From positions 1 through 64,000 of the forward strand of contig CACNWB010000007.1 in assembly GCA_902624095.1 (NCBI GenBank): a stretch of DNA of 64,000 nucleotides, given 5' to 3'. A program made the translations under genes and the position numbers. Within the stretch, counting starts at the first letter, position 1. Every line of letters starts with the position of its first letter. Of this stretch, positions 34,008 through 39,585 are shown piece after piece. A model generated the notes under the pieces. That model was not told the DNA's origin. It made no database searches and saw only the letters and a program-made list of their open reading frames with translations. Source of the stretch: an uncultured PS1 clade bacterium. GTDB lineage: Bacteria > Pseudomonadota > Alphaproteobacteria > RS24.

Positions 34008-34264
34008 GGCATAATCCTCTCAGTGCGCGCGACACTAGCATTCGACACACAATTTGCAAGAGCTGACAGCATATGCAAATAGACAGCAGCTGAAGCAGAG
34101 CAACTTGCCCCGCCAACGGCCTGTGGAGAGGCACAGCATGCTCTACCGACATATCACACAATTTACCAAATCTACCTTTTCATCCATTTTCTGTTTCGCC
34201 GATGGATAGCGGGGTCTCCTAATGAATTTTTAAGGAGCTATACGAGGAATTTTTGATTTCCACC

Positions 34265-35188
34265 CTATACTAGCGTAGTCGGCTCAAACCCCTCCTTGCG
34301 CAGCCTATCGTGCAAATGTGCTACATGAGCTGGACCCACCTCGCAGCAGCCACCAATAATTGTTGCGCCATGCTTCACCCACCCAAGCGCATGCTCGGTG
34401 TATACAACAGGAGTCAGATCTGTCCGAGCATCTAGGCTGTCAACCGTGGCACCCAAGACAAGGGGCTCCACTGATTTAAATGCATTAGCGTAGGCACCGA
34501 AGCGGAGACCGCAATCAGACAGCATTGTCAGCGCATTATCTATAGTTTCAGGAGATGAACAGTTGAGGCATATCGCATCGGCCCCGTTTTCGCCGAGCAC
34601 ATCAATTGCCCGAGCTAGCGGCTCCCCTGAACGAAGACTAATAGTCAAATCATCTTTGAGAGTTAGGCCCAAGAAACAATTTTGGCCCGCTGCCTTTAAA
34701 GCTGAAACAGCTGCCCTGGCCTCAGTAATGCTTGACATTGTTTCGACCAAGAAAACATCAACATAATCTGCCTGCGCGGCAATAATGCTGCAGTATTGAT
34801 CATAACAATCTTGGTAATTCTGATCCGCCGGAACATAGTAGCTTGCTATGAGTGGGGGTAATACCCCCGCGACGTTTACCGCTTTTTGATCGCCAGGCTC
34901 CGGAAAGGCCTCTGCAATCGCTTGACGAGCGAGCGATGTAGCAAGTTGGTGGATTTCAGAAAATCTGTCCGCCAACCCATACTGTGCGAGACGTGCCGAC
35001 GTAGCGCTATAATTATTGACAGTGATAACTCGGGCGCCAGCCCGTAGAAAATCTTTGTGAACAGCCACTACAATTTCGGGCTCCTCAATCATAACCTGCA
35101 CTGACCACAAGGGGTGGGAACTATCCCGCCCGGAACGCTTGTTAATTTCCTGTCCCAATCCACCGTCTAACAGGGCAATATCCTGCAT
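34265..35188 (-). CDS. Homocysteine S-methyltransferase family protein
   Basis: LLDGGLGQEI, ICLNCSSPE, GGCCEVGPAHV zinc-site motif. Confidence 0.92.
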   Translation of the reverse strand: MQDIALLDGGLGQEINKRSGRDSSHPLWSVQVMIEEPEIVVAVHKDFLRAGARVITVNNYSATSARLAQYGLADRFSEIHQLATSLARQAIAEAFPEPGDQKAVNVAGVLPPLIASYYVPADQNYQDCYDQYCSIIAAQADYVDVFLVETMSSITEARAAVSALKAAGQNCFLGLTLKDDLTISLRSGEPLARAIDVLGENGADAICLNCSSPETIDNALTMLSDCGLRFGAYANAFKSVEPLVLGATVDSLDARTDLTPVVYTEHALGWVKHGATIIGGCCEVGPAHVAHLHDRLRKEGFEPTTLV

Positions 35189-35257
35189 TTCAAAGCTACT
35201 TTCTAAGCAAAACCCAAGCTATTTAGCTGATTGGAGGCAAGATACTCTATGAGGGAT

Positions 35258-35923
35258 TCATCGTTGGGAGTTAACCGACGATGATGTCTCATTGCCAATT
35301 GGAATATCACAAACCTCGTCGCCCCTAAGCTCGCTTGCCATCCTGTGGTTAGTTCGACTGTGCCCCATCTCATCAGCCCGCACAGCCATCACGACGTCTG
35401 ACAAGCGAGCATTTGCCGGTAACTTATAATAATCCCTTGCGATTTTCGGTGCACCAACATTTTCAATTTCACCGTTTTGGATGCAATTGAGATACTCCGT
35501 GTAACTAATAACCGCCTGCTCCTCAAAATATCCTACCATTCGATGCGCGGTAGCTGGAAAAAAAACGTAGAGTGCAAAATAAAAGTGCCAAAAACAAAAC
35601 TGGGCTGCCAAAATCAGCCATCGCTCAAACATATTTGGCTGGGCGATCTCGACAAAGATCATCAAGTGCATCCGCTCGTTTTCAGCTTCATCAAGCAGCT
35701 CCTTTATCCACCCCTTCTCATCCTGCTTCATATGCCGAAGTGATTTTAGGTGGGTCCACATTCCCGCAACCATGCCAGGGACGCCAGCTATTGTTTCTAG
35801 CACCACGGCCCTGTGGCCGTACCTTTTTGAAAAAAAAGCGTCTGCAAATAGTCTAAAAAACATTGTCAGATACAGCGCAACTCTATCTGAATTCGAGTTT
35901 GGTCTAAAAGTTTCATTTTCCAT
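35258..35923 (-). CDS. Alternative oxidase (AOX), di-iron ubiquinol oxidase
   Basis: LETIAGVPGMVAGM, NERMHLMIF, YFEEQAVISYTEYL, RADEMGH (ExxH) in the expected order. Confidence 0.92.
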   Translation of the reverse strand: MENETFRPNSNSDRVALYLTMFFRLFADAFFSKRYGHRAVVLETIAGVPGMVAGMWTHLKSLRHMKQDEKGWIKELLDEAENERMHLMIFVEIAQPNMFERWLILAAQFCFWHFYFALYVFFPATAHRMVGYFEEQAVISYTEYLNCIQNGEIENVGAPKIARDYYKLPANARLSDVVMAVRADEMGHSRTNHRMASELRGDEVCDIPIGNETSSSVNSQR

Positions 35924-36033
35924 AAGTTGGAGTTAGTCCTCGAGCGCAGTATTTACCAGATGAAATTTTGACGCAGTTAAGCCAGAAAAAACCGAATCGC
36001 CAATATACTCTTAGTCCAAAAAAGGAGATTATT

Positions 36034-36768
36034 GTGGCCGACGTTAAAAGCACCGTCACAGAGCTGGACGAAATTCGCTCTCGGAAATCAAAAAAACGCG
36101 CTGATAAGAATGACCAAGAAAAACGGGCTGACGAAGCCCACGCTTTTACAGTTCAGGCAACGTTTCATCGCAAGAGGGTTAATTATTTTGGCAGGCCATT
36201 TCGGACAAAAGACGACTTCGGGATAAATACAACAACAATTAGTCACTATTCACAATTTGGATTAGATATCTTTGGCGACATAAGGTTTGAAATAACCAAT
36301 CTGGTACATCCTAATAAATTATTTATTTCAGGGCTCCCAATTTATCCCTATTTCGGGGATCCTAGACTCCACGACCTTCCAATGAGGGATGCACAGTCAG
36401 CCATAACCGATAAAGCATCTAACCTTACCAATGGATTATCATGGGGCCACATCCAAAACGCTGAGTTTCTGTACTCGGACGGGGTAAATAAACCGTTTGC
36501 AGTATTCAATTTGTCAGAAAGAGATAGGCAGGTGTTAACTGAATCCGCTGCTTACAATGCCATTGTATTTTCAATGTTCTTTTCAGAAGAGATCCAGAAT
36601 TTCCATTCAAATACAGACGGTCTCGACTTTAATCTTGTTGCACAAGAGCCCGACGATGAGGCGGGAAGAACCACACAGACGCTGAGCGATTTTAGCATTC
36701 GCAGCACTCAGGAACGGTGCCCCTACATCTATTTTTGGGCTACTATTTATAGTTTAAGGGATCCGTAG
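36034..36768 (+). CDS. Hypothetical protein
   Basis: ORF 35968..36768 with SD AAAGGAG upstream of GTG at 36034; no family recognised. Confidence 0.6.
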   Translation: MADVKSTVTELDEIRSRKSKKRADKNDQEKRADEAHAFTVQATFHRKRVNYFGRPFRTKDDFGINTTTISHYSQFGLDIFGDIRFEITNLVHPNKLFISGLPIYPYFGDPRLHDLPMRDAQSAITDKASNLTNGLSWGHIQNAEFLYSDGVNKPFAVFNLSERDRQVLTESAAYNAIVFSMFFSEEIQNFHSNTDGLDFNLVAQEPDDEAGRTTQTLSDFSIRSTQERCPYIYFWATIYSLRDP

Positions 36769-36997
36769 GACCGTAGGAGGTGGTCAGTACTTTTTTGTTT
36801 CGATACTTGTTTGCAACTGATAGCAACAATTACTTCGCGCTTTTGAATAAAACTGGCTTTCAGTGTATTGACAAAAGATAAAGTCGGAGATAAACCCGCA
36901 TCATGACTTTGTAAGAGTTCTCCAAACAGATTTCTTTGTGATCAAGGGCCTTGGGCCCCGATTGCTGTTGTTTGAAATCTGAATAGGAGAACTTGGT

Positions 36998-37309
36998 ATG
37001 ACATCGTCGTATTCAAAAGGCTTCGGCCGAATTGCTTTTCTTGGCAACGAAAAGTTTGACCACCTGATAAGAAAATCTGAAACACGCTGGTGTTCGAGTG
37101 AGCAGATGGTGAAAGAACTTTTGATTGCTACAATTAGCGATCAAAATGGAATTGATCGCAGAATAATTGAAAGCTCTGAGGTTTGCTTAGAAGGCAATAT
37201 TTACTTACGGCTTAGAGAAAACCCTGCCAATAATCGCCACCTAAAAAAACGACAAAATGGTGCCGCCAGAGGAAAGCAATCGAACTTTCCAAAGCGACTT
37301 CTTAAATAA
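36998..37309 (+). CDS. Hypothetical protein
   Basis: 103-aa ORF preceded by AGGAG; no family recognised. Confidence 0.5.
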   Translation: MTSSYSKGFGRIAFLGNEKFDHLIRKSETRWCSSEQMVKELLIATISDQNGIDRRIIESSEVCLEGNIYLRLRENPANNRHLKKRQNGAARGKQSNFPKRLLK

Positions 37310-37438
37310 TAATGATCGTTTTAAAGGAATAGAATAGAGAGATGAGACCGACGCTTTAATAAAAGACGGGAAGGGTTTAAAGGTGTTCTAGTCATTCGGC
37401 GATTTCTCGAAAAAGAGACTGGAACTTAATTAGAGGTG

Positions 37439-37467
37439 TTGGGAGCGGGATATTATCCTGCTCCCAA
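37439..37467. other. Strong 13-bp stem / 3-nt loop hairpin
   Basis: TTGGGAGCGGGAT-ATT-ATCCTGCTCCCAA (one internal G-U pair); no U-tract on either side. Confidence 0.7.
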
Positions 37468-37642
37468 TCACAATATGTCCTTCAGAAATATTGAGTTGTT
37501 GATCGCTATCAAATTGGTCATGCTTGAACGCGTCAATGTGCAGACATTTAAGGGTCACCGATGTGCTAGGGCAAATTAGATAGGGCCTCCAACAAGTAAA
37601 TTTCTATTTATCTTCGATCTCTAATACGCTATGCATCTATTT

Positions 37643-37704
37643 AGGCATTTAATCACCAACTTGTGCGCCCTGGCATCCCGCCTAAAGCACTAAAGCGGAG
37701 AACA
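37643..37704 (+). repeat. Duplicated 5' leader, copy 1
   Basis: aggcatttaatcaccaacttgtgcgccctggcatcccgcctaaagcactaaagcggagaaca; 59/62 identical to 38132..38193. Confidence 0.9.
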
Positions 37705-37707
37705 CCA

Positions 37708-38097
37708 ATGACAAATATTGTCGATTTCCCAGAAATTGAAGTAAACCCAGAGACGCTTCCGCGCCAGAGAGTATTTTACGTTGGCTACAGATATGTAGGA
37801 CCAATGCTATGCCAGGACGTGCAAAATCTCTATCTAAAGCGAAAGGGCGTAAAAAATGGCAAACGGTGGTGGGCGATTATTACCTACACTACCCTCGATG
37901 AATACAGCTCAAAGACATATTCATTCGAACTAGAGGAATGCTCCGAAAATCATGTTCCCGATATGCTAGAGAGGTTTGAACTCGATGGTGAAGTCAGCAT
38001 TTCTGATCTCAGAAAAATGGGGTGGCGGGGCAGACACCGAGCCCAAATAGTTCAGTTAGGCGCGGAGCAGGGAGACCTGTTCAAAGAGCGGCATTAG
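37708..38097 (+). CDS. Hypothetical protein
   Basis: ATG at 37708 after GCGGAG; listed ORF starts upstream at GTG 37663 inside the duplicated leader. Confidence 0.6.
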   Translation: MTNIVDFPEIEVNPETLPRQRVFYVGYRYVGPMLCQDVQNLYLKRKGVKNGKRWWAIITYTTLDEYSSKTYSFELEECSENHVPDMLERFELDGEVSISDLRKMGWRGRHRAQIVQLGAEQGDLFKERH

Positions 38098-38131
38098 GGG
38101 CACTGAGAGCTAAAGACCTCCGAATATTTCA

Positions 38132-38193
38132 AGGCATTTAATCACCAACTTGTGCGCCTTGGCATCCTGCCTAAAGTACTAAAGCGGAGAACA
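38132..38193 (+). repeat. Duplicated 5' leader, copy 2
   Basis: aggcatttaatcaccaacttgtgcgccttggcatcctgcctaaagtactaaagcggagaaca. Confidence 0.9.
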
Positions 38194-38196
38194 ATC

Positions 38197-38811
38197 ATGA
38201 CACACATTGAAAAATTTGATCTCGGTTTTCGGCCGACAACGTATTTTTCGCCTGAGATTCTTACAAAACATCAAATCTCGCAGATAAAAGATGAGCTTGT
38301 GCGAAGACATCTTTTAGATCTTTATGAATCGGCAGACTTCGATCAAATAGATGAGGTTTTAAAATCACATCAGCAGAATGGGGACCAGTACGGTGCCATT
38401 CATCCTGCGTTTATGGGCGGTCAGTATCTCCCCGACCTGGAAAAGAATGAAATGGAAATAGCCAGGTTAATGATACGATCAGTTACATACGATATCACCG
38501 CTTTGTATGCGCGATTTGAAAAAGGCAAAATCCATTATCGCATGGCCGACGAGTATGAGGGAGAGACATTAGTTGAACCTACAAGTCTGGTTTCAGACAA
38601 GCCCCTGTCACTCGGCGAAATGCGCGGATTCTTCCTATCATCCTATTCATTACTCGAGTGTTTGGAATGGAACGATATGTTTTGGGAAAATGGTAGAGCA
38701 GAGGCGCTAGACTTTTTCAAAGCATCCTCAGATTTTTATCCCGGTTTCCATGAGAGCTGTGTAGCTATTGTAGAACACAAATTCGATGAGATTGCTGCTG
38801 AGCAAAACTAG
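38197..38811 (+). CDS. Hypothetical protein
   Basis: ATG at 38197 after GCGGAG; GAIHPAFMGGQYLPDLEKNEMEIARL segment; no named family. Confidence 0.65.
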   Translation: MTHIEKFDLGFRPTTYFSPEILTKHQISQIKDELVRRHLLDLYESADFDQIDEVLKSHQQNGDQYGAIHPAFMGGQYLPDLEKNEMEIARLMIRSVTYDITALYARFEKGKIHYRMADEYEGETLVEPTSLVSDKPLSLGEMRGFFLSSYSLLECLEWNDMFWENGRAEALDFFKASSDFYPGFHESCVAIVEHKFDEIAAEQN

Positions 38812-39051
38812 GAATAAAACTCTAGTGTCTCGATTTACCCAAGCGGGCAATCTCTCGATAGTTAGGTAATTTTCGAGACGCGCGTGCCTATCTCTGTACT
38901 GGTTTAGGGAATCAATTTATTCCCTTCCTCATTGTGCTCTAACCAAACTACACCGAGGAACATTGCTAACATCATCAGTACCCAAAGCGTTTTTTGGCAA
39001 GTGATGAAATTTACACCATCTCTTTTGATATAATAATAACATAAGGTTAAG

Positions 39052-39128
39052 TGGTCGGAGCGGCGGGATTTGAACCCACGACCCCTTGTCCCCCAGACAA
39101 GTGCGCTACCGGGCTGCGCTACGCTCCG
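39052..39128 (-). tRNA. tRNA-Pro (anticodon GGG)
   Basis: Minus-strand cloverleaf CGGAGCG...CGCTCCG-A-CCA; loop CTGGGGG flanked by CTTGT/ACAAG. Confidence 0.95.
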
Positions 39129-39174
39129 ACAATGACGGTTTTAGGAGGTTTCCGATTTATTGGCAAGCAGGCCC

Positions 39175-39585
39175 TTAGCCTGCTTCGTCACCGAGCAAAC
39201 GATGGCGGATTTTGCCCAGTTGATCACGGGCGGCAGACAATTGGTCGCGTTGCGGCTTGGTCAGTCCAGCCCCATTGCCCAGCAGGGCACTGGCACCTTC
39301 GACGCGTGCGCGCACATAATCGGCACCATGGTCTTTGATAATTTTTTGCACACCCTTTATCGTCAGTCCATCTTCGTGCAACAGACATTGAATGCCCGCA
39401 ATCACCTGCACATCCTCGGGGCGGTAAAACCGCCGACCAGCGGCGCGCTTCAATGGCTGGATGATATCGAACTTTGTTTCCCAGAAACGCAGGACATGGG
39501 TTTCCACATTCAAGGAACGCGCTACTTCACTGATACTACGAAAAGCGGTTTCGGATTTCTCTTCAGACATTTGAAAGCTGACCAC
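39175..39585 (-). CDS. MerR-family transcriptional regulator
   Basis: [42 protein letters not shown]; next to ihfA. Confidence 0.92.

Follow-up and report, generated by a model that had tools for sequence, protein, structure and literature searches.

Two nearly identical leaders, each ending directly before the start codon of a different open reading frame, are very probably translational OFF riboswitches of a divergent SAM-V subtype. They lie in a stretch of 64,000 nucleotides from an uncultured PS1 clade bacterium (the window), as cargo of an island inserted at a tRNA-Pro gene, and would form part of a mobile regulon scattered among marine bacteria. Leaders and reading frames are:

37636 to 37707, forward strand: leader 1, predicted SAM-V-type riboswitch aptamer with expression platform (model R1 87.6 bits, E 3.4e-17)
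37708 to 38097, forward strand: ORF1, 129 aa; the same leader stands before its family in five further genomic contexts
38125 to 38196, forward strand: leader 2, predicted SAM-V-type riboswitch aptamer with expression platform (model R1 83.4 bits, E 3.4e-16)
38197 to 38811, forward strand: ORF2, 204 aa; no homologue found

A repeat search of the window returned 37643-37720 and 38132-38209 as a direct repeat of 78 nt with 90% identity and a spacing of 489 nt, far above chance within the organism's own genome (BLAST E 6e-31 and 9e-23). The sequence-only reading had described a 62-nt leader pair (37643-37704 and 38132-38193) placed just 5' of ATGs at 37708 and 38197. Both ATGs are present, and the copies differ at exactly three positions, copy 1 reading C and copy 2 reading T each time (37670/38159, 37679/38168 and 37688/38177). 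That 62-nt core stands, with the element somewhat longer than claimed (about 37636-37707 and 38125-38196) according to R1, a covariance model built from 51 relatives. BLAST and R1 found no further close copy in the genome; a third, decayed one lies on another contig (C15:15104-15174, R1 53.7 bits, E 3e-9), and a weak whole-genome match to the Rfam SAM-V model RF01826 on C28 (E 9.9) was taken as chance. A second tRNA island of this genome, at 7733-11456 of L096 (G000:C15:5000-24000), carries a tRNA-Arg, a tyrosine integrase, part of a D5-like primase and a decayed SAM-V-type element, behind which comes an ORF of four codons (MKYY).

When 35900-39400 was scanned against all of Rfam, RF01826 matched both leaders over the complete model (1-66), with E-values in the 3.5 kb scanned of 0.0044 for leader 2 (34.7 bits) and 0.017 for leader 1 (32.0 bits); both scores lie under the Rfam gathering threshold of 41 bits. 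The SAM-II model RF00521 gave no match among those listed (E up to 5). In the numbering of the metY crystal structure, the nucleotides that bind SAM or build the triplex (U8, U9, U10, U19, U20, U47, A48, A49 and A50) are all found in both leaders, and they are invariant or almost so across alignment A1 of 51 distinct copies. Position 18 is C in both leaders rather than A, so that the A18-A50 pairing is missing; among the relatives it is C in 43 of 51 and A in 5 of 51. Judged by its sequence, the leader RNA is a divergent SAM-V subtype and not a new class. Since the score stays below the Rfam cut-off and A18 is absent, we speak of a variant predicted to work like SAM-V rather than of a strict member.

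The leaders share with the SAM-V riboswitches of Pelagibacter (RF01826; before metY, bhmT and mmuM) the H-type pseudoknot of P1, P2 and P3, the triplex strand, the equivalents of U47, A48, A49 and A50, the helix P2a over the Shine-Dalgarno sequence, the nearness to the ATG and some methionine-cycle targets. They differ from them, beyond score and C18, in two additional loop nucleotides, a G after A50 and a longer P3. The SAM-II riboswitch has the same pseudoknot architecture and SAM contacts (PMC6061858), but RF00521 is unmatched here at E up to 5, and most SAM-II riboswitches are transcriptional (PMC6061858). The standard Rfam cut-off misses this subtype, and the SAM-V model would need widening.

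The helices in the window, in the P2 register of Huang and Lilley 2018 (PMC6061858), are:

37643-37646 with 37667-37670, forward strand: P1 of leader 1, outer pair an A.C mismatch
38132-38135 with 38156-38159, forward strand: P1 of leader 2, outer pair A-U
37661-37666 (UUGUGC) with 37687-37693 (GCAC-U-AA), forward strand: P2 pseudoknot helix of leader 1, U 37691 being the U47 equivalent
38150-38155 with 38176-38182, forward strand: P2 of leader 2
37672 to 37682, forward strand: P3 hairpin of leader 1 (GGC-AUCCC-GCC)
38161-38171, forward strand: P3 of leader 2, lengthened to GGCA-UCC-UGCC
37656-37657 (CC) with 37697-37698, forward strand: P2a of leader 1, pairing with the GG of the Shine-Dalgarno sequence GGAG (37697-37700)
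38145-38146 with 38186-38187, forward strand: P2a of leader 2

Pairing in the SAM-V pseudoknot reaches 98.3% across the 51 copies. Double-change cells number 43, where shuffles give 9.2, and sliding the pairing partner gave much lower values. P2 is paired in every copy and nearly invariant. Because the search pattern prescribed the P1 core (GG/CC) and the greater part of P2, constancy in these places is not independent evidence, and independent structural support comes from the outer P1 pair and P3, where the bulk of the covariation is located. The outer P1 pair is AU in 26 copies, GC in 9, CG in 7 and GU in 4, the inner P1 pairs also covary, and all three P3 pairs, at positions left free in the pattern, vary on both sides. 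The two pairs of P2a, which joins the triplex turn to the Shine-Dalgarno GG, covary as well (CG 47/UA 4; CG 26/UA 12/UG 8). According to the proposal of Huang and Lilley this helix closes on SAM binding (PMC6061858), and here it overlaps the Shine-Dalgarno GGAG lying 7 nt before the ATG at 37708. The three C/T changes of the window fall in or beside helices: the A.C of P1 becomes A-U, P3 gains an A-U pair, and a G-C of P2 becomes G.U. In a subset of copies (L023, L024, L061, L063, L082, L085 and L095) a short hairpin of the type GAYCCACCT-NA-YGGRTC stands immediately 5' of the aptamer; the window does not have it.

The two leader-ORF units are carried by an island whose features are:

34061 to 39051, no strand: island of 5.0 kb, inserted at the 3' (CCA) end of tRNA-Pro(GGG)
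34265 to 35188: homocysteine S-methyltransferase of the island (PF02574)
35258 to 35923: alternative oxidase of the island (PF01786)
39052 to 39128, reverse strand: tRNA-Pro(GGG), the insertion site (ARAGORN)

The rest of the cargo is two ORFs and both leader-ORF units, and the ORF1-ORF2 part has a lower G+C content. In two genomes of the same genus (G001 and G004; L132, L133) the site is empty, tRNA-Pro being followed directly by a 74-aa gene and CtaA, and in G007, of the same family, these two genes closely trail tRNA-Pro(GGG). At the far island end the 3' end of tRNA-Pro is not repeated over 13 nt or more, and no integrase was recognised in the island. An AlpA-like gene occupies the same tRNA-Pro site in G002. 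We considered an aptamer of its own for the island homocysteine methyltransferase and ruled it out, the genome having only three above-chance R1 matches. Since G001 has a homologue of ORF1, together with the leader, elsewhere in its genome, ORF1 and its switch appear to travel jointly. Homologues of ORF1 are found at L026, L030, L034, L037 and L090/L099. Neither ORF1 nor ORF2 has a match at a useful score in Pfam, NCBIfam or PHROG or a PDB relative at a useful score, and both are absent from the IMG/VR and phage records searched; ORF2 is also absent from the plasmid records searched and from 385 alphaproteobacterial genomes. An AlphaFold model of ORF1 with five homologues was discarded (pLDDT 35, pTM 0.22).

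Pattern scans located the element in 12 IMG/VR contigs and at 32 loci of GTDB genomes. Most of these loci belong to SAR116, Rhodobacteraceae and Planktomarina, and some to genomes with the label Litoricola or Halieaceae; a match in G064 (L010) lies inside a coding gene and was dismissed as chance. Among 70 distinct copies the downstream gene belongs to a 165-aa family B in 12, to a 61-79-aa family C in 8, to the ORF1 family in 6 and to a 66-aa family D in 3; SNF2 helicases follow in 4, OmpW in 4 and metY in 3, and other genes in the remainder. Some of the contexts are methionine genes. The closed genome G238 has R1 matches before metY (L098, PF01053 E 3e-121), an ORF1 homologue and a family-C gene; at L014 the element precedes metK and then an SNF2 helicase; and at L035, which is of the A/A/C subtype found in the window, it precedes a homocysteine S-methyltransferase and then metY. 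An association with methionine or SAM-cycle genes (metY, metK, homocysteine methyltransferase) is thus a property of the element family and not of the window's two genes. The family as a whole differs from known SAM-V in its targets, mostly small and uncharacterised but including an Mrr-type nuclease, SNF2 helicases and OmpW, in its location on islands and podovirus-type contigs, and in occurring several times per genome and operon. The first description of SAM-V, from 2009, gives metY, bhmT, mmuM and metH as targets, with phage unmentioned in its text (PMC2704228).

Integrases, tRNAs or D5-type primases lie close to many copies. Podovirus-type structural genes are present on most of the 12 viral contigs, those tested being portal (phrog_1216), major head (phrog_1328) and terminase; L014, with its metK, is the exception. 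In L011, L012, L016, L018 and their relatives, which are podovirus-type metagenomic contigs, the element and the structural genes are on opposite strands; the element lies beside the portal gene and precedes small uncharacterised proteins, those of L011 and L020 looking related. The element occurs exactly once per viral record and up to six times in a bacterial genome. A blastn search of sequenced phage records found no trace of the aptamer, and six isolate or named relatives of the viral contigs gave no R1 match, so that the phage part of the regulon stands on metagenomic contigs; plasmid searches returned nothing above chance-level matches. The glutamine riboswitch of methylophage Melnitz (PMC9004378) is likewise a phage-borne metabolite riboswitch controlling phage genes, but it is of another RNA class and ligand, whereas the podovirus-type contigs have a single SAM-V-type element before a small gene, usually by the portal. 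The open-access literature searched holds no description of this SAM-V subtype or of its island and podovirus-type regulon.

These results agree with the sequence-only reading on both of its general points. It had proposed a shared cis-regulatory RNA or translational control element, which comparison with SAM-V supports in the form of a putative translational riboswitch aptamer, and a mobile expression cassette, in keeping with leader units on a tRNA-Pro island and the element on other mobile elements; the RNA class and the island had no part in it. It would have given up its proposal had the motif been confined to the window and unstructured, and had called for searches of other genomes and for a look at the genes behind the leader: the leader recurs elsewhere and is structured, and several recurrent small uncharacterised families follow it.

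SAM is very likely the ligand and repression the likely direction of the predicted switch, both of which we infer from the position of the element before metY, metK and a homocysteine methyltransferase-metY operon. At high SAM levels the ligand would bind in the P2 triplex and P2a would shut over the Shine-Dalgarno GG, blocking the ribosome start; at low SAM, ORF1 and ORF2 would be translated. The gap between the ORF1 stop and the second aptamer is just 35 nt, which suggests that the two genes are probably a single transcript with a switch of its own for each cistron. As SAM-V acts on translation, a polycistronic mRNA would need one switch per cistron, and together with the short gap this leads us to propose a single mRNA on which two OFF switches act independently. 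Tandem operons of element copies, with gaps of 6-55 nt, occur at six loci including the window. The leader-ORF units would belong to a mobile regulon under SAM-V control that is scattered across marine bacteria and their phages.

The fold might instead have shifted its specificity towards SAH, methionine or another adenosyl compound, as position 18 and a triple of positions differ from the Pelagibacter type. C replaces A18, columns 16, 24 and 61 of A1 switch jointly between A/A/C and G/G/A in 48 of the 48 copies with letters there, and methionine genes are a minority of targets. The joint switching fits a base triple but could also mark two lineages. Yet C18 types stand before metK (L014), metY (G238) and the homocysteine methyltransferase-metY operon (L035), and every nucleotide touching SAM or its sulfonium is retained, which makes a shifted ligand improbable. 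We give marginally less credit to a recent local duplication that serves as a ready promoter and ribosome-binding site with a defunct aptamer. Near-identical copies so close together, the P1 mismatch of leader 1 and the visible decay of the C15 copy would all suit it; all three differences, however, keep or improve pairing or give G.U, leader-ORF1 units with intact aptamers occur in five other contexts, and a promoter and terminator scan of the leaders and the sequence upstream stayed at chance level.

Repetition before unrelated ORFs on mobile elements could also point to a recombination site or cassette end acting as DNA, akin to an integron attC. This is very improbable, for the element always lies immediately 5' of a start codon, precedes core methionine genes too, links its P2/P2a geometry to the Shine-Dalgarno sequence and matches a known riboswitch model. 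The least credible of the alternatives is that the leader is translated from GTGs at 37663 and 38152, lengthening ORF1 and ORF2 at their N-termini. These frames do open into both ORFs of the window, where the three changes read P/L, P/L and A/V as the sequence-only reading had stated in arguing against coding. That argument is upheld by the wider set of 64 copies, in 48 of which the GTG-ATG distance is not a multiple of 3 (over all 64, the distance modulo 3 is 2 in 37, 0 in 16 and 1 in 11) and in 13 of which the GTG frame holds a stop; moreover, the ATGs have good Shine-Dalgarno sequences and P3 covaries.

With a SAM-responsive switch of the divergent SAM-V subtype as the preferred reading, uncharacterised gene families on islands and podovirus-type contigs, with one element per cistron, gain a testable expression condition, namely low SAM, and the element would clearly exemplify how mobile elements can disseminate a metabolite sensor. 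A bolder and rather doubtful extension is a SAM-responsive regulon common to the phages and mobile elements of marine bacteria, with targets that are jointly relieved of translational repression as SAM falls. If so, several unrelated small genes would be released together with an Mrr-type nuclease and an SNF2 helicase resembling ZorD/DrmD, for example in phage infection or sulfur starvation, and SAM depletion would serve mobile-element or defence genes as an alarm or a timing cue.

Some individual targets merit mention, the functions of their products being putative. SNF2 helicases lie directly behind the element, or in an operon after element and metK, at L014, L032, L043, L047, L085 and L038; in PADLOC the SNF2 protein resembles ZorD/DpdE/DrmD helicases, a likeness that may reflect a generic helicase alone. 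Behind one copy is a protein with an Mrr_cat nuclease domain (E 6e-6), and in an operon at 88-1560 of L024 an element with an Mrr_cat-type nuclease is followed by another element with a family-B protein. An unexpected target is an OmpW outer membrane protein of one alphaproteobacterial family (f49), found behind the element at L008, L057, L058 and L064.
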